A program made the translations under genes and the position numbers. 64,000 nt of DNA from Eutreptiella sp. 'Long Island Sound 2002' (taxonomy: Eukaryota > Euglenozoa > Euglenophyceae > Eutreptiales > Eutreptiaceae), in contig OZ038388.1 of the NCBI GenBank assembly GCA_964036045.1, positions 32,571,759 to 32,635,758 on the forward strand. Reading direction: 5' to 3'. Below, in pieces: positions 1 to 17,800 of this stretch. The notes beneath the pieces were generated by a model that was given only the letters and a program-made list of their open reading frames with translations, ran no database searches and was not told the DNA's origin. Numbering within the stretch: the first letter of the stretch is position 1; every line of letters starts with the position of its first letter.

Positions 1-1934
1 CCATTGCAATCTCTAAAACGTTTTGGACATTTCAAATTTTGTGTGTTCACTTCATTCACTTGGTTCATTTGGGTCTTTGGGCCAAATATCCTTGTTCTTT
101 GACCCTAGACCTCCCCAATGTTTCTACTTTGGGTATGTGAACTTGTTTTGGTACGTTCTATTACTTACCCAATCCATTGCAACGAAGTCTGCCAAGTGTA
201 TAGGATAGTGGTTTTACGTGGTCCTAGAGATGTACATTATAGACCCTGAAAACTACCCTTTCATGTAGTCACTTGGCGGGTAAACAGTAAAGAACCCATG
301 AGGAGTTGGACCTTGGGGTCTTTTCCTCTGTTTCAATGGTGCTCTCTACTTTGTATTGAGCATTTGTTGGGAGGTTACAGGTACATCGGTTCACTGTTTT
401 GAATTTTCTCTAGAACTTTGTTGAAAATTCCAAACTTCATGAGGTCACTTCTGAGCCATGGGAAAGTTAGGCCATCTTCTCGACTTGGGCCAATATTTTA
501 CCCATGGCCTCTCATCAGTGTCTATTCTTCGTATTTGAGGAGTTTGGGTGATGGCCTACCCTTATGGGATCCGACCAAACCCATATGTTGCCCCAATTTG
601 GACTTCAAATCTGACTCAGGAATGTATGCATAAGCCCTTTTTGAGGTCCCCAAAAATGACCTCAAAAAGTGGGTATTAGAGTTGGTTGCCTTGCTCCAAC
701 CTGAGGGAGAGGTAGGGCGAGCCCTTTTACGACAATCAACTCCTCTCCAGATCCTTTGTGCATGCACTTCCCTGGACCTTAGGCTGACCCTATGTGGGAG
801 TTATTTGCATTCTTTTCTCCCCTGCTTTTCACTTAGGAGAATTTCACCAAAGTGCGCAGCCTACCAGACTTGTGACAGTGACACGGTATCAGGGAGACAG
901 ACTCGGATATCTGGTGGGCATAATGTTCGACTGATGCCCTTGGGATGAGGCCGCATGGAATCCTTCGAATCCCCTTTGCCTTGGCAGGACAGTGTGTTGA
1001 AGTGGGTAACCTCTGATTTTTGGTTTTGCCTGTTTTTGTACCCTGCTTCCCATGCTAGGTCTCAGAGCCCGTGTGGAGTTGGGTCCTGCCCCTGTACGCG
1101 TGTCACGGTGAAGGTCTTGGCTACCTCCAACTACCCTTGTTTACTTTTGGGATGTTGGATCCTGAGGTGGTATGGGCAATTTACCACTTTACCCCCTTTT
1201 CCACAGAATTTCTGGGGCCTAAGTCTCATAGGCACTCAGGACCACCACCCCCCCTACGGTGGTGTGGTGGGGCTATCTCCTGCCCCAAAGGGACTTGAGT
1301 TGGGATATTTGAGGAGGATGGAGAGTGAGTGTGTAGGCACTAGACCCCCGCTTTTGGGGTCCTGTAGTGCCGGGAGTGGAGAGTGACAACCCCCCCACTA
1401 GGGTAGGCTTTGACAGCCAATGGGCCTTACCCATGTCTTGTTGTTTTTGCATGTTTTGTTCCTCCTCCTTGGGGATCCTGAATCAAGCTACCCAGGATGT
1501 GCTGATCGGGAGAGTGGGCTCCCTTTGTCCCCCCCTCTCCCGCCTTGACACCTCTTCCTTTGTGACTTATGTTGATTAGTGCACCTTACCCTAACCGGGA
1601 CATGTGTTGGGGGTTTTACATGTTCCTATGACCATGTGTACATGCTTTCTTTCCTTTGTTGTTTAGACCTCAAAGGGATTGCTTCGATTTTGCAATCCCG
1701 ATGGATGCTCACTGAGTCTGAGTGGATGTGAGTGGTCTTCTTCTTGTGCTACGCGTACGTGCAAGGAAGGAGGCCGCATGTGTTTGGAGAGGGTCGACCC
1801 GGGGACGGTAGCCCCGGACCAGCTGGTGATCGCGCTGGGGGTTTTACATCTACCCGCTTTTGTTGGCGTCAAAATCTCTGCCATGTTGAAATAGGCCTGT
1901 AAAAAGGGAGAGAAATGTACATATTTATTCTTTG
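1..1934. other. no supported gene
   Basis: I see no gene here. Open frames are short and fall in all frames, with no recognisable domain or splice-consistent exon chain. The sequence is mixed, moderately T-rich DNA with repeated phrases such as TTTGGGCC and short runs of C. It may be old repeat sequence, but I could not assign it to a family. Confidence 0.5.
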
Positions 1935-2069
1935 ATTGCGAGGGCTCGCAATGGACATTATATGTATTTGCCTCTAATTACCTACTTCGTATTGTGAGGC
2001 CTCGCATTAAGGTAACAACATATAGTCAAAAACGCACTTTTTGAAAAGACGATTGTGAGGGCTCGCATT
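1935..2069. repeat. left cluster of 18-bp palindromes (3 copies)
   Basis: Copies lie at 1935-1952, 1991-2008 and 2052-2069. Each matches ATTGYGAGGSCTCGCAWT within one or two bases, and each is nearly its own reverse complement. Spacing is 56 and 61 bp, roughly five to six helical turns. The matching cluster lies 2.4 kb away on the other side of the transposase-like gene. Confidence 0.75.
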
Positions 2070-2149
2070 CCGAACACGCAGTAGTGAGCAAAAGCACCGG
2101 TGTGCGCGCAACAACAACAACAGAGTTGGGAATCAACCTAATACGGGTG

Positions 2150-4080
2150 TTATGCATCGGCAAAGGCCCAGATTGTGTCCAGAATGTTTGTGCGCTGCGC
2201 ATCAAACCGCAGAGGAACCTTGTTGTCCATCAATCGTAATACGGAGGGTGAGAAATTCCGGGGCTGCCTCAGAAATGTACGCAAAACATCGGTTAACACA
2301 GTTCTGTATGTGTCTACCTTCGGCTCGCTGTAAGGGTCGGACGGAAAATCTGGATCACCCTCCCAGTGTCTCTCCATGGTCGACGTACCCGACTTCCAAG
2401 GACAGTACCGTATTCTCGGGCGCTCGTCAAAAACATACGAGTGCAAGCGCTGTCGGATCTCGGTTTCGATGTCGGAGGACAAACCACTAACCAGCAGGCG
2501 TCTGTTAATTCTCGCAGGGCAGATCTGGACAAACAAATCTTCGACGTGGCTGGGTGTGACAGCCCCAGTGTGTCCATCCTTCATGGACCCCGGTCAACTA
2601 AGCATGACTTCGCCAAACTCACCATAGCACAATCCTGGCAGGCCGCTGTTGAAGGTCTGCCAATGCAGCAACGCAACACCGATGGTCCTCACATACAAAA
2701 CAGGCTCAGCTGCAGCCCTCTCGAGCTCAATCAAAAGCACGAACAAGAGTCGCAAAACATTTTGGGCGTCGATGGCGGTTCAAGGGTGCCCCTCAGACCA
2801 GTTGCATTCTCTCACGCGAAATCCACAGTGGAGGACAAGCGGACACCAGTTTTGCAGTAGGATCACCATTGCTTTACATACTTCACTCTTTAGTCGATTG
2901 ATCGCCGTCCCACCATGATCGGCAACAGCCTGTAACTAGAACACTTTCCTACGCAACTGCCGCAGAAATTGCGGCGCACAGTTCAGGATGCCGGCAATAG
3001 TTCTCTCCATGACTCTGACTTTCGGGTACGACCCTACTGATTTTCCCACTCCTAAGCGGCCAAAGCGCAAGTACACAAACAGCGAATGGAAGCGGCGCCA
3101 TAGGTTGGTCACAAGGTATTTGTAGGGATGCCAGCAGCCGTACGAGAAAGGAGTCCTTTTCAGTTTTTCGTGCCAGTTACACCGCTGCGTTCTGTCGGAG
3201 TACAGTAACTTCACAATGGGGTGCGTGTGGTTTGACAGCGATGCAATGTAGTTCAACAGCTCAACCAGGCCCTTATACGAGGATACTTGATGCGTACTCA
3301 GCAGCAACGACTTCCAACCAGGATTCGGTAGTGGATCTTGCACGATGTCAAGCGGCGCTCTGATGCTCGGTATTGCTGGAGGTCTGTCCGCAAGCAGGCC
3401 CAGATCTGTCACGATCCCATGAAAATTCCGTTTCATTGTGACAAGCGCTGCAGCCACACTGCCGATGCTGCCGATGAGCACATCTATGGTTGGGTGTCCT
3501 CTGAAATACGGCAACCTGCACGGAATCTCAACGACGCAAAGGGCTGTCCAATTTTGCGACTGATCCTGGATCGTTGGATGCATTGCATACTGCTTAATGT
3601 AACAATTGTCCATCCGGACGCAAACCTGCCGGTTCTCCATCCATCGCCATGTCTCAAGCTTCTTTCCCGCAGACCATTCCTTCATGGTTTCTTCGCGGAG
3701 CCGCAGCAGTCCTGTTGTGCGCAACGGGCGCGTGTTCTGCCGACCGATTAAGGCAAAACCCGGGGCTCCTCGTCGTGGTGCTGGGGTATGCATCGCAAGC
3801 GCAAAATTTTGTATAAGTTGAAGAACTCCTCTTTGAAGTGGTTGGCGGCTCGGCTCTTTGGTCTGCTTTTCAACCTCACTAGTGAGTGCCGTATTTCCCA
3901 GTTCAGTCGCAGCAAGTGCGCAAAATCGAAAAAGAGAACAGCTCCACTGTTGTTCTTTTCAACGGCAGCCCATAGTGATTCAGCAGTGGTAAACCCGTGT
4001 TCCGTTGCACAGAAAGCTCGCAATCGCCTGACAGTCCGTTCCCTCTCCCTCTTCGCTCGATGCGCAATGTTACGTGGCAT
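2150..4080 (-). pseudogene. transposase-like protein, disrupted
   Basis: A single reading frame on the minus strand runs from about 3793 to 2150. It is broken by a TAG at 2936-2938 and TGA codons at 2780-2782 and 2594-2596. The protein text continues plausibly across each stop, so this looks like one decayed gene rather than several small ones. A further open stretch at 4080-3748, in another frame and rich in basic residues at its start, is probably the N-terminus and implies a frameshift near 3.77 kb. Visible motifs include an acidic MDNCYIKQY and a later YSD followed by WHPYKYLVTNLWRRF. These acidic positions could belong to a DDE-type catalytic core, but I do not recognise the family. The palindrome clusters on both sides support a transposase role. 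Confidence 0.45.
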
Positions 4081-4483
4081 GAAAAATCATCTCAAAGAAT
4101 CAAAAATGTGCATTTTATTATACCATTCCACAAAAAACAGGCTCCTTTAATGCTACAGTTGAATAAAATTTCTTGCCAGCAAAGCGCTGCACACGCGACA
4201 CGCACATAGCGATCTTTGCGCGCAAATCCGCCGCGCGTGCGCATTTTCGGTTGCTGGTAACGGTCAACTGGTCCCACATTTCTCTTGTTGATCACATTTG
4301 CGGTACCCAGTTGCAAACCGCCCACCATCGCTGTTGGGCAATGAAGCCAGCGGTGACCACAGTATGAAAACTCGAGATGCCGGCGGGACCTACATGGGCG
4401 CCCATGCAGCAGCGCCGCATCAACGAAATTGCACATGCTGTGTAGTTGGTGGATCTGTCCATTTTATTGTTTTCCGTTCCATT

Positions 4484-4667
4484 ATTGCGAGGCGTCGCAT
4501 TTCGATTCCTGAAACCATACCTTTTGGGCATATTTCGAAATGGAATGCGAGGCCTCGCATTCGAAAATGAATGTTATTTGTAGTAATTACCCTTATGCGA
4601 ATTTTATGTGCATTCGCTTCTGGTAAAACAAATGAAATCGAATCCTTCCATTGCGAAGCCTCGCAAT
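4484..4667. repeat. right cluster of 18-bp palindromes (3 copies)
   Basis: Copies lie at 4484-4501, 4544-4561 and 4650-4667. The middle one, AATGCGAGGCCTCGCATT, is a perfect palindrome. They match the copies at 1935-2069, and none is seen inside the gene, so the distribution is subterminal. Confidence 0.75.
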
Positions 4668-7600
4668 CTGTTGCAGAAAAAAGGGCGTCATAACCGACAC
4701 GAGGTGCGACACACAGTGGGTTGTCCTTCTTTATTGAGATACCATGGTACGCACGAGTACAAAGGAGCCTCGTTTGTTGCAACGACGGGAAAAAAGTACC
4801 TTTTTTAACTGAAAAAACAGGCATGAAAAATCAAGGTCAAAAAAACAGGGTAATTCACCGAAAAAGCCCACATCATTTCTCGGTGTTTTTTTGCAAAAAG
4901 AGCGGTACAAAAGCGTACCTGTTTCGGCCGCCTAAGCACATAGCGATCCTTCTTGCTTTGCGCAAGTTTTGTGATGCCGGCTTATGAAGAAGACGAATCA
5001 GACCGATCTGCACCTACATTACAGGTAGCGGATATGTGCTGGGCGAATGTCGCAACATGGGCGAATCTCAAAACAAATACCACTCCACGATAAGAAAAGA
5101 TGCACAATAACACTAGAAATGAGGGCAAAGTATGCATGCAATGATACATGAGTTGCGAGGGTCATTGTTACAGGTACTGGGCTACTATGCAAGTTAGGTA
5201 TGGTCGTGTATAAACTTGCACCACATACACACAGAATACCAAGATACGGGTGAAATAGTGCCGCATACATACATACATACATATATTCTTACATACCATT
5301 CCCCCCCACACCCACCACTTTTTTCGGCTATTTGATTGTACATTCCCCTTTTTGGGCCTCTATCGTTCATAAATGGTGCATTTGGTTCCGTATGATGTTG
5401 ATCTGCCATGGGCACTCTTTCATTTGAGGCTATCGAGAGCATATGTTTGCCCAATTGTATACTAAGGCTGTGTGCAGCGAGCCGTGCACCAAGTTGGGGA
5501 TGAGCTAGGTAGGAGGAGCGCATCCTACGACTCCATTGGATGGTCCATGGGTTCATAGCAGCATTTCATCAACAAACCCAATGTGAAGTATAAGCGGTAT
5601 AGTCCCCGATGTCATTTTCTTGGACAGTGTACACTAAAAGTAATTACCCTTTGCTGCTTGCGGGGGGCCCCTTGTGGCACTTCCCGGTGGGAGCAGGAAC
5701 TGGACCACCACGTTGCGCAGAGTAACTATAATGATGATGCTACCAATCACATGCCCTTTACCACCTATCTCATTGTAGCGCGATATCATATGTGCACACA
5801 GCCTAAAATGGTTGAAATCTTTGCCTACACATTCAATCCCCATCTTTATTGTTTCCAAATACTTGCTTACGGGGGGAGTTGTCGCAGGTGCCAGGGTCCT
5901 AAATTCTGCACCTCCCTACTCTTGCTAGTAAAGCAGAGTTGACGTGATATTCTCCACGAATACCCAGCGTCGCAAAGGTCAGGTTGCAAGCATTTCAGGT
6001 TTATCAGGTTGCATAGAACCGGGAAATATGCCCCGACCCAATGCATGAAACCATTCCCCCGCACAGTGGGGGGTTGTGCCCAAGCGGGAGGAGACAAGAC
6101 GCACAGAGAGGGTTTCAGTGCAATCTCCACCACGCGCTCTAACGTATGGCATCATCTCGCGCTCATGTTTCTGGGTTCCTGGGTGCAGACTCCCTCCAGT
6201 ATTGCTGGAATACTCAGCAATTAGAAGAGGGGCGACCAATGGCCAACCGTCAGCTGAATAGCTATACAGCATCCACAACAATCATGAAGAAACCCATTTT
6301 GTGGAAAGAAATCAGGCATTCCAGACATGGGTAATAAAAAACACCAAAAAATATTCACGTTGTCTGCACGGATCAAGCAACACCACCACTACCACACTTG
6401 ATCTTCCAATGTTGCCTTATTTAATAACTGACTCATCTTAACACCTTGGCACAATGGATAACAGTGCCCAGAGAACTGTGTTAAAGAAAATCAAAATTCC
6501 ATCAGTTCCATACTAGACATGAACTGAGAATACCATCCCCCCCGCCCTCGCTGAGTAAGAGTTGTACCCCCCCCCCTTTGTATAAGCTAAGCCAAAGTCC
6601 CAAATTAATACAGTCCTTACGCCTACTGTGGCTTGCGCGTGGCACATTCAACTACCAACACTGGGCACCCACATTCAAAAAGAGAAAATTGCATGGTGAG
6701 CCGGTGCAAGACAGGGGCAAATAATGCACAAGCATCCCCAAAATCAGAGCTATCTGGGGCAAAAGGGCAAACACTCATGACAAATGTGTCCATGCCTCTA
6801 TGTGACTCGCCAAACCCATGTCTTATGTGGCTGCAGTATGTTTGGTACCAAATCAAAATTAGGTCCCAAATTGACATGGTCCCTACGCCTAGTGTAGCTC
6901 GGACATAGGTTATACAAGAGGGGGGGGGGTACCCCAACTGGGGGCTTTGGAAAATGTCAACCTCGATTTTCCGCCAAACTTGAACATCGATGCGGGTGTG
7001 TTATCTTGCAGAACAGTGTAGGACAGTTTCTTGTGTTTTGGTGGGTAAATATTCTGCGAAATGGGAATGTGATGCAGCTTCCCCCTGGGATGAGTGTGAT
7101 ACTCACCCCCTCTACCCCCATTCCAGGGCAGGCCATAGTGATGCATATCCTTGCATTATTGATTAGTGTACTGCAAACCAGTGGTTCATGACTGTGCATT
7201 GCCTGCAACTTCTGTTCCAAAAAAGCTGCTGCTGAATACCTAACTGCTGTTGACTACACTTCTCTGCTTGTGGTGCATGCACCCCATGTAGCACTTTGAG
7301 GTGCTTCTGCAATAAGAGTGCAGGCAATTGTAGTAATCTCAATCCCCCACAAAAAGCTCAGAAAATTGTTTCTGTCATCCCTCACTGTGCTTGAGATCTG
7401 AGCAGAATGTATGCAGCAACAACTGGTGAGGTCATTACATTACCAGAAACAATGATTTTGGGCAAAATCCATTTTCCCATTTCCTACTTGTCAAGTGGTT
7501 GGCGTCAACGGATGTGGTGTTCAGGGTAAAAGTTTGCTCCAGGTGTGTAAACAACAGGGGAAACACACACAATTCAACCTGCACAATCAATGATGAGTCA

Positions 7601-7818
7601 GGACCGGACCCATAACGTTCCAAAAAGAGATGCAACGCCTACTGTCCTTCAGTGGTGGCCTGCATAACTTTCCCAACATTCCAATGCTCGCCTGTACAAT
7701 CCAAGCCAAACCATGCCAAAACATGATGAGCTTCGACGAATGCATTTGCTATATACCGAATGGATATGGGATTCAGTGCGCTTGGGTTATGCAGAACAGC
7801 CTTCACCTTTGCAAAGCC
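4668..7818. other. intergenic region without recognised gene
   Basis: No exon chain or known domain was found. The region contains a short (ATAC)n microsatellite at about 5266-5285 and C or G runs near 5301, 6538, 6569 and 6920. The right part is the presumed downstream flank of the THI4 gene, which is transcribed leftwards. No clear polyadenylation signal could be assigned. Confidence 0.45.
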
Positions 7819-7974
7819 TCGTAGGTAACTTGTCCAGCCTTGTGTCCACATGGCACCACAATGCGGGCTTGCCTTACTTACGCACAGGGGTGCCCTTTGC
7901 CTTCTGCAGCTGCAAAGATTCGTAGGCAACTTGTAGTGCTTCTTGTCCACATGGTACCAAAATGCGGGCTTGCC

Positions 7975-9053
<1,079 letters not shown>

Positions 9054-9134
9054 CTAACGGCAAGTGCGAAAGGGACAAGGAGCCCAGGAATGCTAGTTTT
9101 TGAACATCCCAGGTATCAATACTGAAACAAGGGC

Positions 9135-9227
9135 CTTCAACTCCCTACGCCAGTGCAAACTGGTTCAGGTTCTGCGGGTATAATCTCAGCCCCAGTTCGA
9201 GAGTGAACTGGGGCACCCCGGTTGAAG
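9135..9227 (-). promoter_or_regulatory. TPP riboswitch aptamer 1 (closest to THI4 ATG)
   Basis: Read on the minus strand, the aptamer has all conserved TPP (THI-box) elements in order. P1 is CTTCAAC paired with GTTGAAG. GGGGTGCC pairs later with TACCCG to form P2. P3 is a hairpin, CCCCAGTTC with GAACTGGGG. Then come CTGAGA, GAACCTGA, a CCAG/CTGG P5 hairpin and GGCGTAGGGA. It ends about 103 nt before the THI4 start codon. A pyrimidine-rich stretch ending TTTCAG follows it, a possible 3' splice site. Confidence 0.93.
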
Positions 9228-9278
9228 TGCTCCCCATCTCTCAGCGTCAGAGGGCTTTAATACTGAAACAACAAGGGC

Positions 9279-9371
9279 CTTCAACTCCCTACGCCAGTGC
9301 AAACTGGTTCAGGTTCTGCGGGTATAATCTCAGCCCCAGTTCGAGAGTGAACTGGGGCACCCCGGTTGAAG
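9279..9371 (-). promoter_or_regulatory. TPP riboswitch aptamer 2
   Basis: This copy has the same sequence and fold as the gene-proximal aptamer and lies 144 bp upstream of it. Its linker carries CCCTTGTTGTTTCAG and an ATG opening a short upstream ORF. Confidence 0.93.
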
Positions 9372-9422
9372 TGCTCCCCATCTCTCAGCGTCAGAGGGCT
9401 TTAATACTGAAACAACAAGGGC

Positions 9423-9515
9423 CTTCAACTCCCTACGCCAGTGCAAACTGGTTCAGGTTCTGCGGGTATAATCTCAGCCCCAGTTCGAGAGTGAACTGGG
9501 GCACCCCGGTTGAAG
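9423..9515 (-). promoter_or_regulatory. TPP riboswitch aptamer 3
   Basis: This is the middle copy of the array. No base differs from copies 2 and 4 in the aptamer core by eye, and all TPP consensus segments are intact. Confidence 0.93.
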
Positions 9516-9566
9516 TGCTCCCCATCTCTCAGCGTCAGAGGGCTTTAATACTGAAACAACAAGGGC

Positions 9567-9659
9567 CTTCAACTCCCTACGCCAGTGCAAACTGGTTCAG
9601 GTTCTGCGGGTATAATCTCAGCCCCAGTTCGAGAGTGAACTGGGGCACCCCGGTTGAAG
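9567..9659 (-). promoter_or_regulatory. TPP riboswitch aptamer 4
   Basis: The aptamer core is identical to copies 2 and 3. The linker on its 5' side carries a single base change near 9681 relative to the other linkers. Confidence 0.93.
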
Positions 9660-9710
9660 TGCTCCCCATCTCTCAGCGTCGGAGGGCTTTAATACTGAAA
9701 CAACAAGGGC

Positions 9711-9803
9711 CTTCAACTCCCTACGCCAGTGCAAACTGGTTCAGGTTCTGCGGGTATAATCTCAGCCCCAGTTCGAGAGTGAACTGGAGCACCCCGGTTG
9801 AAG
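9711..9803 (-). promoter_or_regulatory. TPP riboswitch aptamer 5 (5'-most)
   Basis: This is the copy nearest the presumed transcription start. It differs from the others at 9788, where a P3 C becomes U in the RNA. The partner is G, so the stem is kept as a G-U pair. All other conserved TPP elements are present. Upstream sequence at 9804-9830 diverges from the linker consensus, marking the array edge. Confidence 0.92.
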
Positions 9804-12800
9804 TGCTCCCCATCTTTCTGCGTCATTGAAGGCTTCAGACACAGCACCGGTTTGACAGCAGTTCGAAGTGCGCGCAAAAAGATGGACGAGGAGATGGCGA
9901 GGGGAAAGCATCGCAATTCTGTAATGCTACAACGAACTTTCACAACGAATCATGCTTTTGGGAACTGCCCTTCTAGCGACGTGGAAATTCGTGACATTTC
10001 TTCGGCGGCGAGGATATTTGTCGCTTGCGCTGACAGCTCGTCGCCCCCGCGCCCAGAAGCCAAAATTTGCTGGCATCCCAGGCCACATCCACGTGATTGT
10101 TATGAAAAAATGCTGGGTCATCAATTTTTGCGACGATATACCAGCCGTATGGTATTCGAGGGGCTACATTGGAATGTCACACGCAACATGTCGCCGACAT
10201 GACCCCAACATTGTCGGTGACAAATGACAATGTGTGGCGTGTTGCAAAACGCTGGCAGTGGCGTACTTCTGTACGTGAAGTCTTGTCTTAGGACAAGGAA
10301 AGCACTGGGGCCTTAAAAGCGCCACAGGGCATGTCTTCCCCTTTGGCTGCAACAACTTGTGTTTCATGGAAGTCGTGACAAAAGATTGGATCTTCAAGTA
10401 GTTTTCTTCGTGATTGGAAACGACACTCGACGCCATTGTAGCCGTTCTTTGATGACAGAAGATGAAGATAAAGATTCGCCATTTCCCATCGTGCGTATTT
10501 AATGCATGGATTTGATGCAACCCATTTGACCCCCGTGATGCCACTGCGTTCTATCTCGGTCGTTATGGTTGGCGACGGAAAGCCTCCACCCACCATCAAA
10601 AAGTTTGCTTTCGCTTTCGAGTAGATGATTCGTTCTACTACCGTCTTTTCTTGGCGTGGGCACTAGTAAGCAAGCATGAAAGCAACACAAATTGCCTCCA
10701 CCCATATTGCAAACGGAAGGTGCACGTGAGCGTACGTCAATCTCCAAACCCTGGAAATCCTTGTTTTAATTCTTGGGGAGTGGGGCATATTGGTGCCCGA
10801 TCACAAGTCGTTTTAGAGCATACGCCACTTGGAGATAGTACAAGGGAAAGCCACGCCATGTTTAATTGGAGGGCGTAGGCATTGCGCTCGGAACAAAGGT
10901 GGTTCTTCCTTTCATGTTGAGGGCGACCTCCGAGCATTTTGTGTCTTTGTATTAGGTTGAGCTCTTTGGGGCAAGTGGGTTGCTACAAGTTTGTGTAGTG
11001 CTTGCATGCATGGTTAATTGCTCACAGGGGTGGAAATTTTAGTCAGTCGGGACACGGGTTGCGTACCATTGGAAAGGGGGTGCTTGCTACCATGTGTTGC
11101 GCTCTTGAATGCGACAATTGCGAAGAGGCATTTTCCATTAGAAGTTGTAAGGCACTGGTGAAACAAGGTCCCAGTTGCAAGTGATCGGCGATTTTCATCG
11201 CTCGCATGTTGAAAAATCGGCGTGATACAACCCCATGAATATCACCGTCCCCATGACCAACGACTGCTCCCCTCCACCAAGAAGGCAGTGCGTGTTGTAA
11301 AGTACGTCTACAACGAGCGAAAAGTCCGGACAGTTCGAGGGACGGCCTCACCGCAAAAACGGCGCCGCGCTCGAATGTGGCAGGGAAACCCAACACGCCG
11401 AAAACAATACGTCAAAGACCAAATTCCATTGGTTCGTGGACCAATCCGCGGAAGTTTCAATTTCACGCCCGTGAATGTGCTGCTTGAGTGCTTGCTTGTG
11501 CGAGTGTGAACACACCAGACACAACACGAGATGACACGACACGACACATAAGCAAGCACAGGTGCACAAGTGAAAGCGCAATGATTGTATGCCGCCTAAA
11601 CCACAACTATGCGTCACTTAAGTGATCGATGGTATGAATTTTTCTTGGTGAGACAAGGTTGCATCGCTTTTTGCTCTTGTGTATTAGTGTATGTCGTAGT
11701 TAGTGCCAAAGGTTGTTCTGTTCTTTTTTCTTCTTTGCCCGTTGTGCTTCCGCTAATGTACCACACGTGGTCCGCGCTCGCAACCCAACGCACATACATT
11801 TGCTTCGGCAACGCACCAATGGTTTGCATGCGCGTGTGGGTGGTTGAACAATCAAAAGGCCTCCATTTTGGGGTAAGCACAAGCTCATCTTTGAACACGT
11901 TGAGCTTGTAGGTGAAGAGGCAAGCCTCCCCCCACCTGTCGCATTGGCGATGTTTATGTCGGAAATCTTCGCCCGTCGTCGTAATTTGGTGCATTGTGTG
12001 GCCCTTTGTCGCAAGACCATTTAGCACCATCAAAATTGCTCACAATGCACTTGAAGACGCAAGAAAGCACAATATACTTTGGTATAGAATGGAATTTCGT
12101 TGGCATGGAATCGTTTTTTCCTATTCCGATATTTGAAATCACGAGTGGGTAATCAACATCCATCCCGCTATTTTGCCCGGAATTCACTTGGAGCCGGGTT
12201 TGATCCGACTTAGATGTGTAATAGTGTAGTTCACATGTGGTGGTACAATGGGGACGACGTTCATTTATAGTCGATTGTTACGCCGCATGCGTCAAAATTG
12301 GTGACTTGGAACGACTTTCACTTAGATATGGCGCCACAAGATGCGTGGCAAAGAATCAACTGGAATGGATGGGGCGAAGGTGATGGGTTTCAAATGGATC
12401 CAAATAACCCAGAATGGGTCATACATCCAAAAGGTTTGCTTGTCGTTTGCATTCCGCCCGGCCGCTATGAGAACGAGCCTCATGCAAAGAAATGCCCACT
12501 CGCTCGTTGGTCTCGGCGCCAATGTCCCGAGATATTGCATCATCGTGTCTCCGATCGTTATGATGCTGCTTGCACCGACACACTTGTCCTAGGGGACTCT
12601 TTAAGAAAGATCATCCCATTCATGAAAGAAACATTCCAGATAGAAAGCATTGCACAATCCCCGTCGTTGCCCAAGAACAAAGTTATGTCGAAGCTCCCTC
12701 GTCCAACCATTTGCGCAGGATTCATGGAAAGCCTCAAGGTAAACCTTGCAACGTTTCGGTGGCCAGTCGAAGCATGTAATAGAACAAGATAACCATTCCA

Positions 12801-13097
12801 TGTCCCACGTGATTCCGACACATGGTTTTCCATGTTGATTTTATCATTAGAAATCATGTTCCCATCGGATGTTCTTTAAGGAGAGCCGGAGCCCGTTGAA
12901 AGGAAGCAGTTAAAAGGAAGGGGCTTCTTAATCGCGAAATTGTATACGCCGTGATTTAAAGCGTCTTGTGGGAGGAAAGAAGCCAACCCTATCCCCTTGC
13001 ATATGATACTTTGTGAAAAGTGAAACTGCCGAGCCTTCAAGCTGTCAACGTGGTCCATTGGTGGTTGTGGACTACGGAGCTTACCCAGCCACGGCGG

Positions 13098-13271
13098 GGG
13101 GGGGGGGGGGGGGCTCCGGCCGTGCCGTGCCACGGTGCCGCCACATAGGGTGTGTCGTGTCACACGGGGCCGCCGCTATGTCGTGTTGTGTGAGGGTGAT
13201 CGGCACTTGTGTCACCTGTGCCGGCTGTGCCACCATGACACGGAGGGGGGGGGGGGGAGGGGGGGGGGGGG
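13098..13271 (+). repeat. paired poly-G tracts
   Basis: There is an uninterrupted run of about 19 G near 13098-13116. A second tract of G runs broken by single A bases lies at about 13244-13271. GTGCCGTG/GTGTCGTG phrases lie between them. Such tracts can form G-quadruplexes and are prone to length change. Confidence 0.7.
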
Positions 13272-14413
13272 ACCATTGGAAAGTGTGCCGCGGCACGTGC
13301 CGTGACATGGGTAAGCTCCTACACCCGGCGCATCGTGGGCACGCTTCGACTCACGTCTCCGCATGTGTTGTTGCAGGCAACATTGAAACCCAACCAAGTG
13401 AGCACCGACAATGAGAATCGACTTTGCCATACCTTTGGGAAGAACTATCGGGATCTTTGGAGAGTGCGCAACGGTCTCATTGAGCGGCCCCCCGACGCAG
13501 TCGTGTTCCCTTCTTGCCACCAGGTGACGTGCATGTTGTGCCAAGCTTTTGCTAGTTTCAGCAGAACCACACATTCTTTTTTTCGCTTGGGCGTTTCTCG
13601 TGAGCGACCGAGTGATGTGGCAAACTAAGTTGATGTGGTCCAACCCCTTGAGCTCTTTCGCATACTTCAAGAAGGTCGATGGAGATAGACGTAGAGAAGC
13701 AAGTGCACTAGAGGCAGCGGGGCCTTTTTAGGAGCAATAAGGAAAGCCCCAGAGCTTTCATGACACAAACCACGAATTGCATATGGACCAAGAAAGGGAG
13801 ACGGTGTCATTGTGAGGGAGCAAAGTAAAATAGGCACATGTGAGGAAGGGATGGCTATCGATGGGCTATCGATGGAGATAGAGGTGGACATCTTGGCAAG
13901 ATTGAAGAATGTAAGTTCACCGTAACGGGCGGGCACACCATTTGGGCGAGATAATTGTAAGTGGAAGAGTTCCAAGAAGGAACCAAGTGGAATTGGAGGG
14001 GGGGGGAGTACCTTCGTGTCGGGACGATGCATGCCTAAGTCTACCACGAATACGAAGCGGTGTTGTTTCGCTCGCGGATTGCCCACTAGACACACGATGT
14101 GACCTCCAACACCCTGCATCGCCCTGCCTCAGGACGTTTATTGGGACATTAGTGCGCAATCGCCTTCCATTCTTCACCCCTGCACCCACATGGCCCTCCC
14201 GATGCCTTCCTCCCTCCCTTTTTGAAGGGCATGTTTTCTGCCTTTTTGTGTGTCTTTTCCGTGTTTTTTTGTGTTTTTTGTGTATGTGCGTGTTTTTGTG
14301 TTTTTTCAGTGTGTTGATTTTTTTGATACAATAGAGAACACACGACAGACGTGTACCAACGGGGAGAGCAACTAGAACATGCTATGCATGAGCACTTACA
14401 CACGAGTGAGAAT

Positions 14414-14415
<2 letters not shown>

Positions 14416-14460
<45 letters not shown>
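14416..14460. repeat. (GA)n microsatellite
   Basis: A perfect GA dinucleotide repeat of about 22 units. It produces serine-leucine runs in one minus-strand frame, which are not a gene. Confidence 0.9.
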
Positions 14461-14463
<3 letters not shown>

Positions 14464-14821
14464 GGGCGTCATGCAGTGCAGTGCATACGTGCATACATGG
14501 TGACTCCGCCGCTAGGTGGGCGACACGACTCAGTGGCAGCCTAATTTGTTGAGTAGGAGGTTGGTGGATCCTGGTTGAAGACACATGTAGTGAGCAATGT
14601 GTCTGACCGACCAGGCAGAGTGAAGCAGAAAGGGCTGGGCTGGGCAGGGCGAGCGAGGATCAGGGTACAAGTCTTTCTGATGTGCACAGTGCCCCTCACC
14701 GTACTGCTATAGCCTTTTGGTTCATGAACTACTGAAGAAGCTTTGCTTTCTGCTAGTGCCGTGCTTTAGCGTCATCGTCATCCACACACCCATCTGAGAT
14801 TGGTTGTGATCTGTTGCTCAG

Positions 14822-17800
14822 GACGTGGAGGTGATCATGCAGGCAGCAGTGCAGCATAACGTGTGCCTCATACCCTTCGGTGGGGGCACGAATGTCGTAG
14901 GGGCAGTGGAGCCTGATCCTTCGGAGACCAAGCGAATGATTGTCACGATGGATATGCGCCGCATGGGACGCCTGTTGGCAGTGGACCAGGTGTGTGCGCA
15001 CAGTTCCGCCTTTAGTCGCAATAGCCCTTTGTTCATGTCTGCAGGCGATGTGCGATTGCGGTGTTGTTATGGGAAATGGCGTGGATTCTCCTGCAATATT
15101 TGTTGCGGTTCTGGCCCATCGCCCGCCTCGGCCAGCTCAGGGATTGTTGGCCTGGTGCATCCCAGTGGAACAGGCCATTTTAGCATTACCTTCACTCACA
15201 CTCGCACGCAGCAAGGGAGACGTCTCAGCCGCCATGTTGTGGGCTGCTGCAGTGTGCACAGTCAATGCTGTGGTGTTTGATCGCGCAAATACCATATCAC
15301 CCGAGAAGGCAGGCTGCTTTTGTGCCGAACCCGTGTTCCCATGGTCATTGGTCGATGGTCTTCAGCAGCTTCACAGCATTGCCCTTGCCCTAGGAAGTGG
15401 TGGTTGAAAAGGTGGAGGGCAGACGGTCGAGGCCTCCACTATCTGAAATTGCAACGACAGCGGTTGGTAAGTAACAGGGGCTCCTCTTGTCATCAGTCAG
15501 AACAAGCCCAAAGGGGCAATTCAACAACCGTTACCATGTGCGCAGGAGTCCAAAACTGCAGTCTTCGAGGCGGGGGTCCTGGGGCCTGCGCTTGAGGAAC
15601 AGTTAGAGAAGCATGGCCTTACACTGGGCCATGATCCCGACTCCTTCATGCATTCAACCCTTGGAGGCTGGATCGCCACTCGCTCTTCTGGCGCCAATTC
15701 CAATAAATACGGTGACCTGGAGGTGCGCCCCCGTGACTGTGCGAGGCTGACAGTGGGTTACGTTTGAGAGTGCCCACGAGTGCATGTGTCTGACGGCCTG
15801 GGGCTGGTGTCTAGGTGTCGGTTTTGTGCTTGGGTCAGTGCGCTTCAGGATGCATGAGGTTTGTGAAGGTGTGTGGTTTCGGGTTATCAAGGGTTGTGCA
15901 TTTAAGGTGGTTGCGGGTACATGAAGGTTGGTGTTGGTGAGTGTTGTTCAGCAATGATAGGAGTTGGGCAGGGTTCGTTGAGGGTTGAGAGTCGTGGTGA
16001 TGATTGGTCCGAGTGGTTCAGGACCATTGCTGAATTGTTGAGTGTCCCAAGATCTCAAGCTCCACCGTATCCCTGGCGCGAGCCAGTGTAGGCACCCAAA
16101 TGTTCCTGCCTGCCCTCTGCACTCCCTGGGTCTGGAAAATGCATTGCTTCGGAACCTCTATGCCCAAGAGGTTGTGGGCAGTTCTGGAAGCTGATGCATG
16201 GGATTATAGCAAGTGCTGCTATGCTGAAGCAGAATCAAGAAGAATACCTCATATTTGGAAGTCCCAGGAACATGAAAATCAAGTGGTCTGAAATACAAGG
16301 GAGTTGGTAAGAAATCCAGAATTGTGGACCTAGCCTGTTGAAATTTGTATGCAATCCTCAACCAATGCTGACCAAGCAAAGCAGAGGCATGTTTGTTGGT
16401 CGCTGTCATACACGAACGTTGGAGCAAGAAAGATTGTGGCAAAACAGACTCATACATTTGGCCCTCCAAGAATAGGTCCCAGATTATTACTGTCTGGACA
16501 CCTACCCCACCTTGGATAAGGGCTTTTCTGGTGTGTTCCACTTGTTTCTGCAGGGGCGACTCAAGGCATTCAAAACGACCTCAACAGATGCAAACAAACA
16601 AAGGGGGGAAACTAGCAAATGGATGCGCGGTAGTATTGCAACAGATGCGGACCTTGGTAAGCAAAGACAACAGAACACAACACCGTACAGCACAAAATTG
16701 CAAGGGAAAAAATCAGCAACCGCCTGGCCAAGTTCACTGGGTGGACCTCAAATTTGCATAGTTACATTGGTCTGCTTAGCGAATCCATTCAGAGGCCTTG
16801 CATACTCTTGTGACAGCCCATCACATCAAACAATGATGTCCAACGTCATAAAACATATCGGGTTTGGTGGGCTTTCTCTGCTGGTGTTGCCTTGGGCCAT
16901 GTCCCACACGCCCAGGCCATCGATGCCTCCTCAGGGAGGCATTGATGGTGCACCGGGCACACAGGAGTGCCAAGCACCAATCTCAAGCTCAGCCCCAGCC
17001 CTGGCCCCAGCCAGTGTTGTCGCTTTCTGCCTATTTTTTTCGAATGCAAACCACACGCCTTGTGAACGAGCAGAACTTGCCACTGCAGCTGCCTGCCACA
17101 GGGGTAGCGCCCCCCCCCCCCAACACACACACACACACACCTCTGACTCGTGCATCTCGGGAAAATGCCAGGTGCAGAAGAACTGGACGGTGGACGCCAC
17201 ATTCTTTTTTGGGCCCATTTGGTGTACCTTAGCCCACAGGGTTGAATTTGGCATTTAGACCCTTTTTTGGCCCCTTGTTTTGCGGGGCAAAATTATCCCC
17301 AGACAGGTTCTTGGTCAGGGACCCACGATCCTCTGCACCGAGAATGCGATGGGGTCCGGAGCGCAAGTAACATCCAGACTGGGTTGTACGCGATGGGACC
17401 AGGCAGGGCGGGTTAGATGGGCCCCTTACGGGCTCTTCCCGGATGGAGCCCTCTTTTATCTCTGTTTGTTCTCTCCTCCGTCGCAATGGTAGAAGTTGGG
17501 CAGGGTTGGTTGACGGTTGAGAGTCGTGATGATGAGTGGCCCGAGTGGTTCAGGACCACTGCTAAATTGTTGAATGACACAAGATCTCAAGCTCAGCCGT
17601 GTCCCTGGCCCGAGGCACCCAAATATTCTGGTCGTTTGTAGGACATGGTGCTTGCCCTCAAGGTGGTCACCCCTAAGGGCACCGTGTGCACGCCCACCGT
17701 CCCCCGCGCCGTGGGGCCAGATGTGAACGAGGTGTTCCTGGGCTCCGAGGGTGTGTTGGGCGTCATTACTGAGGCAACGATGAAGACGCACGCACGTCCG

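Follow-up and report, generated by a model that had tools for sequence, protein, structure and literature searches.

Among described systems, the THI4 riboswitch of C. reinhardtii shares with the locus studied here the gene, the position in the 5' leader, the TPP aptamer and an upstream open reading frame (uORF), predicted here; in C. reinhardtii one splice form keeps the uORF, which is inhibitory, and TPP leads to its retention (PMC12371167). That system has one riboswitch acting on alternative splicing, whereas the leader described here has five aptamers, lacks the AGGG in P2 and belongs to a spliced-leader host. In green-algal TPP riboswitches, the AGGG of P2 supplies the alternative acceptor AG (PMC9544697). 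Several complete units for the same ligand in front of one gene are also known from bacteria, with 213 in tandem and one triple (PMC9481103), a TPP TPP TPP arrangement in Bacillota (PMC12452182) and quadruple glycine aptamers (PMC9481103). The bacterial tandems differ in their bacterial expression platforms, and the portions of the literature consulted gave at most three TPP copies. In the oomycete Saprolegnia, two TPP aptamers lie in the 5' leader of NMT1, with a mechanism described as unknown (PMC5882874); this is likewise a eukaryotic leader, but with two copies, located in introns, in another gene and another lineage. Finally, prasinophyte ATS1 encodes a folate-receptor-family protein under a TPP riboswitch, and in Micromonas the absence of thiamine raised it 80-fold at the final time point (PMC4260697). 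The preliminary description of the present DNA, made from its letters, was not aware of five such riboswitches in series in a eukaryote. The available text of the open-licence PubMed Central literature agrees in that no eukaryotic TPP array above two was found there, although eukaryotic pairs were already known (Saprolegnia NMT1, PMC5882874). The same literature yielded no euglenid riboswitch. If confirmed, the array would be the first riboswitch of a euglenid and the longest eukaryotic riboswitch series for one ligand within the literature searched.

The window analysed comprises 64,000 nucleotides of Eutreptiella sp. 'Long Island Sound 2002' and lies on a 70-Mb contig of a host genome assembly of 2.28 Gb in 2205 contigs. 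Five TPP aptamers (RF00059) were detected by cmscan on the minus strand of the window, spanning 9806-9125 and all above the gathering score of 54.3 bits: aptamer 1, the 5'-most (9711..9803, 68.5 bits), aptamer 2 (9567..9659, 70.4 bits), aptamer 3 (9423..9515, 70.4 bits), aptamer 4 (9279..9371, 70.4 bits) and aptamer 5, the 3'-most (9135..9227, 70.9 bits). This was the outcome predicted for an Infernal search with that model. Measured from P1 to P1, each aptamer is 93 nt long, and the five follow one another in an exact 144-nt register. The near-identity first read from the letters was borne out, as four of the five are identical and the 5'-most differs at one position of P3, where T replaces C and the pair becomes G-U. 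TRF reported the array as 144 bp x 4.9 with 99% matches, confirming the tandem arrangement; this is the longest period among the 40 TRF rows of the window, the next being 101 bp. No other Rfam family exceeded its own gathering score in the window, and a laxer RNA-family scan of 4000-16000 (E 1) added no family beyond RF00059.

The gene downstream of the array is THI4, on the minus strand, whose product supplies one half of vitamin B1. The exon model and protein search gave three coding exons (8650..9032, 8263..8554 and 7975..8169, the last including the stop codon) with the ATG at 9032, GT-AG introns and a 289-aa thiazole synthase product. The spliced protein matched a protein of Eutreptiella gymnastica (Euglenophyceae) at 100% identity over 267 aa, so that the host is probably E. 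gymnastica or very closely related to it. The earlier identification of TPP aptamers in front of a eukaryotic THI4 holds; its 'directly upstream' corresponds to a distance of 102 nt from the end of aptamer 5 to the ATG. The protein search of the genome placed THI4 at a single locus with three exon matches, and further arrays at THI4 paralogues were rejected on this result. The last 24 THI4 codons and the 3' flank are tandemly duplicated (window 7810-8051; 101 bp x 2.4, 87%). THIC (PF01964) was not found in the host genome, and the same search was positive in 13 of 14 controls. The alga possibly needs the pyrimidine half (or thiamine) from outside, for which the absence of THIC is good evidence, non-final because the controls were all prokaryotic and the genome was searched exon by exon.

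Genome-wide, 49 of 62305 candidates were scored with the Rfam model, giving 29 matches, 28 of them above the cut-off; a DNA search with one unit as query likewise returned 29 places. Both searches agreed on 28 places, five at THI4 (contig C11), 19 on contig C3 and four on contig C10. A divergent aptamer on contig C20 (51.4 bits, below the cut-off) was matched by Infernal only, and a decayed C10 aptamer (80% identity, 37.6 bits) by the DNA search only; both are omitted from the 28 intact units counted below. The C20 match (G000:C20:15679518-15679616; L022:5518-5616) lies upstream of an uninterrupted short-chain dehydrogenase frame. The 19 C3 aptamers form nine groups (2, 2, 2, 2, 2, 3, 2, 2, 2) with a spacing of 144-147 nt, each preceding one copy of the same gene, so that eight copies have two aptamers and one has three (G000:C3:161586767-161719481; L009-L017). 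With the THI4 array, the host genome has ten leaders that carry several aptamers: at least two complete aptamers for the same ligand stand before one gene at THI4 (five) and at the nine C3 genes (two or three). Since nine further genes carry two or three units, the tandem copies are no one-off assembly error, and an assembly artefact as the whole explanation was set aside. The exact count of five at THI4 rests on the present assembly and is less secure because units 3-5 are identical.

The C3 gene encodes a secreted solute-binding-like protein with a signal-peptide-like stretch at its N-terminus, and is a candidate receptor for thiamine or a precursor. The first exon was complete and identical to the query in eight of the nine copies; the three-aptamer copy matched over 177 of 241 residues at 93%. 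A two-exon model agreed at 99% over 99% with a JGI-sourced protein from short contigs (P0121). The protein itself had no Pfam match and its best hit in a PDB sequence search had an E of 0.074, but two of the three relatives scanned matched SBP_bac_3, at or just below the curated cut-off. It has a relative in Pyramimonas parkeae (P0129) and might be UNK1; it differs from the prasinophyte ATS1/UNK1 genes in its tandem aptamers. The end of C3 exon 1 and its splice donor are repeated within the next intron (L009, minus strand, ~1173 and ~1660 of the reverse complement of 1-5100). The 45 kb examined on C10 (G000:C10:63531001-63576000; L018-L021, L027) contain six copies of an ATS1-like gene; a single intact aptamer precedes four of them and the decayed aptamer a fifth, and none was found at the sixth. 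The product matched the folate-receptor family (PF03024, E 7.4e-30) and the upstream TPP aptamers scored 73.6 bits, the combination that marks ATS1. The C10 and C3 proteins have similar C-termini, VVINMYN and VVINMFN, respectively.

The aptamers were more conserved than their surroundings. Between THI4 unit 2 and one C3 unit, a pair chosen as the most alike, the aptamer was identical at 93 of 93 positions, the linker at 42 of 53 and the 190 nt upstream (leader/promoter region, 9804..9993 in the window, minus strand, alignable to the C3 genes) at 136 of 204 columns (Fisher p 6e-13); the other aptamer of the same C3 gene was identical at 92 of 93 positions (p 6e-5 against the linker alone). Selection would account for this difference, as would gene conversion limited to the aptamer. 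One pair of P3 varied between A-U, G-U and G-C and was broken in two of the 24 THI4/C3 copies (A against C). The 5' side of P2 reads CCGGGG in all 28 intact copies, and the green-algal mechanism with an acceptor in P2 was rejected on this basis. These data also bear on the value of the repeats. We consider it doubtful that only one aptamer matters and that the extra ones are a neutral tandem expansion or an assembly-inflated number, as ten genes carry two to five units and the linkers and flanks have diverged more than the aptamers, though gene conversion could also yield that. On the other side, units 3-5 are identical, tandem duplication also occurred at the 3' end of THI4 and the C10 genes carry single aptamers.

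Each THI4 and C3 unit contains more than an aptamer. Within 20 nt after P1, a pyrimidine tract of variable length followed by TTCAG was present in all 24 THI4/C3 aptamers, a count that represents far fewer independent cases because the units are recent copies. At THI4 (minus strand), these acceptor-like sites lie after aptamer 1 (GCCCTTGTTGTTTCAG, 9695..9710), aptamer 2 (9551..9566), aptamer 3 (9407..9422), aptamer 4 (9263..9278) and aptamer 5 (GCCCTTGTTTCAG, 9122..9134). In addition, an ATG 10 nt before the aptamer opens a 30-aa frame that runs through the aptamer to the TAG of GCGTAGGGA. On the minus strand, the predicted uORFs occupy 9721..9813 (aptamer 1), 9577..9669 (aptamer 2), 9433..9525 (aptamer 3), 9289..9381 (aptamer 4) and 9145..9237 (aptamer 5), and a second predicted frame of 37 aa starting at 9826 crosses aptamer 1. 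An aptamer-crossing upstream ATG was present in 5/5 THI4 units and 17/19 C3 units (22/24 overall). The four intact C10 copies have an ATG 7 nt before the aptamer in the same frame, and all four lack the adjacent TTCAG. Between the array and the gene, a pyrimidine-rich stretch (9054..9090, minus strand) ends with TTAG at 21 nt from the ATG and is a candidate normal acceptor for a spliced leader (SL), proposed from the sequence and the published mean 5'UTR. Trimming at the acceptor that follows aptamer 5 would leave a 4-codon uORF (9093..9107, minus strand) in the mRNA, which the TTAG site avoids. The C3 genes are similar: in all nine copies, an mRNA starting at the acceptor after the last aptamer would have a 32-aa uORF that overlaps with the first main ATG, and one starting at the next acceptor-like site, 65 nt upstream of this ATG, would be free of it.

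SL trans-splicing occurs in trypanosomes, dinoflagellates and many animals. The mRNAs of a Eutreptiella species carry a 28-nt SL, and their 5'UTRs measure 21 ± 25 nt without it (Kuo et al. 2013, PMC3621762). The SL plus G, with up to one mismatch, had 2608 matches in the host genome compared to none for the reversed control. Three of the four SL loci examined continue with a GT donor and one with GA; the GA-type locus, the only SL locus scanned for RNA families, contains a 5S rRNA gene within the same 3 kb. The host genome thus encodes the SL of Eutreptiella. The matches at G000:C2:188591371-188608331 have a spacing of mostly 1303 bp, so that SL RNA genes appear to be arrayed there in tandem. 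Among 198 proteins, only the THI4 relative P0009 matched SL-like patterns (CLFFFE shortly before the start); this possible SL remnant was treated as a lead only, as the preceding residues do not fit the SL. Because the host encodes a spliced leader, the THI4 array probably lies in the outron, the part of the pre-mRNA removed by SL trans-splicing. With the TTAG site near the ATG as the normal acceptor, the array would belong to the outron.

We regard it as very probable that the array is a TPP-responsive repressor of THI4, and as rather probable that control is exerted through the choice of a splice acceptor, in trans or in cis. More tentatively, and at somewhat less than even chances, the choice would be between SL acceptors, with TPP favouring the aptamer-linked sites. 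The THI4 pre-mRNA would then carry a serial TPP riboswitch in its outron, each of the five units consisting of an aptamer with its own 3' acceptor-like site, crossed by a short uORF. At low TPP, the SL would be joined at the acceptor 21 nt before the ATG, giving an mRNA with a short leader and THI4 protein. At high TPP, the locked aptamers would favour an aptamer-linked acceptor, a structured leader bearing uORFs would be kept and THI4 would fall. The five units would act as repeated decoys that lower both the TPP threshold and the leak. TPP binding, acceptor use, the direction of the switch and the effect of the series, including cooperativity, are steps that we infer. Some features count against this SL acceptor model: the C3 leader of 65 nt exceeds the published mean 5'UTR, the upstream ATG is missing in two of the 24 THI4/C3 units and TTCAG is missing at the C10 genes. 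No natural riboswitch acting on SL trans-splicing was found in the available text of the open-licence PubMed Central literature; if confirmed, this one would possibly be the first.

Two other modes of action were weighed against the same features. A cis-splicing switch of the algal/fungal type, in which a donor ahead of the array or within it is spliced to acceptors linked to the aptamers or lying downstream and the SL is added further upstream, would agree with the published eukaryotic TPP riboswitches, which act on cis splicing (PMC10043782), and with the two cis introns of THI4 itself. We consider it unlikely, given that no strong GTRAGT-like donor common to the THI4 and C3 upstream regions was seen by eye and that the green-algal P2 AGGG acceptor is absent. 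Less likely still, the array may be kept in the mRNA, where uORFs and TPP-locked aptamers would block scanning and control would be exerted on translation or RNA stability. The uORFs do cross all five aptamers, and algal riboswitch genes that have a single exon and no splice forms have been described (PMC4260697), but a leader of ~800 nt would be exceptional against the mean Eutreptiella 5'UTR of 21 nt (PMC3621762).

The direction in which TPP acts on the aptamer-linked acceptors was examined separately. That TPP promotes their use is favoured as a judgement, because C. reinhardtii THI4 retains its inhibitory uORF with TPP. By eye, the sole pairing seen that would free the acceptor on TPP binding is a 5-bp complement between CUGAA in the aptamer and UUCAG in the acceptor; it could mask the acceptor without TPP and recalls the fungal P4/P5 splice-site pairing (PMC5882874), yet it is short. 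The purine-rich linker can, in several predicted folds, pair with the acceptor tract beside P1, and TPP would therefore hide the acceptor, against the favoured direction. With this opposite polarity, TPP would close P1 and the adjoining linker helix over aptamer-linked acceptors that are the productive ones, the leader would go unadded or be added elsewhere and THI4 would fall. The acceptor starts right after P1, and its tract is U-rich, ends in CAG and looks stronger than the TTAG near the ATG. Against this, an mRNA starting at the acceptor after the last aptamer would retain a uORF in the case of THI4 and, in 9/9 C3 copies, an overlapping one, and its 5'UTR would be far above the published mean (PMC3621762); we judge the opposite polarity improbable. 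In folding calculations, the openness of the five THI4 acceptors was 0.14/0.14/0.14/0.14/0.40 in the free leader vs. 0.62/0.15/0.42/0.15/0.28 in the TPP-constrained one. The corresponding values were 0.27/0.22/0.18 vs. 0.11/0.22/0.43 in the three-aptamer C3 leader and 0.58/0.69 vs. 0.58/0.76 in a two-aptamer C3 leader. The leaders differ, and predicted folding does not settle whether TPP opens or hides the acceptor.

The benefit of several sensors was considered with a toy model in which sensors in series act independently. The half-point was 0.149 K at n=5 compared to 1 K at n=1, the effective Hill coefficient at n=5 was 1.33 and the leak fell as the fifth power. Of the benefits suggested for the series in the preliminary description, a sharper response thus survives in modest form, whereas the dynamic range in terms of ligand becomes narrower, not wider. 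The host genome holds genes with one, two, three and five copies of nearly the same aptamer, and the benefit of serial sensors is therefore directly testable.

Neighbouring units may also interact. A more elaborate proposal, which we consider speculative and unlikely, is a metabolite riboswitch on SL trans-splicing in which five aptamer-acceptor cassettes in the outron choose the leader site and neighbours swap P1 strands, which would provide the ligand-free fold and couple the sensors. In silico, own P1 was kept in an isolated unit (1.0); in idealised arrays of two to five units, P1 helices between neighbours were favoured (mean 0.54-1.0; own P1 0-0.14), and the state with all aptamers formed cost 6.9-16.8 kcal/mol. 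Repeats always offer inter-unit pairings of this kind. When the linkers of five-unit arrays were shuffled, one of 12 arrays attained the inter-unit value of the real one; own P1 was 0.03-0.44 in 11 of the 12, so its loss is not special to the real linker. Folding of the real THI4 leader gave 0.51-0.66 for inter-unit P1 and 0-0.29 for own P1. The three-aptamer C3 leader agreed with this exchange, and one real two-aptamer C3 leader disagreed with it, its units keeping their own P1 at 0.97 and 0.71.
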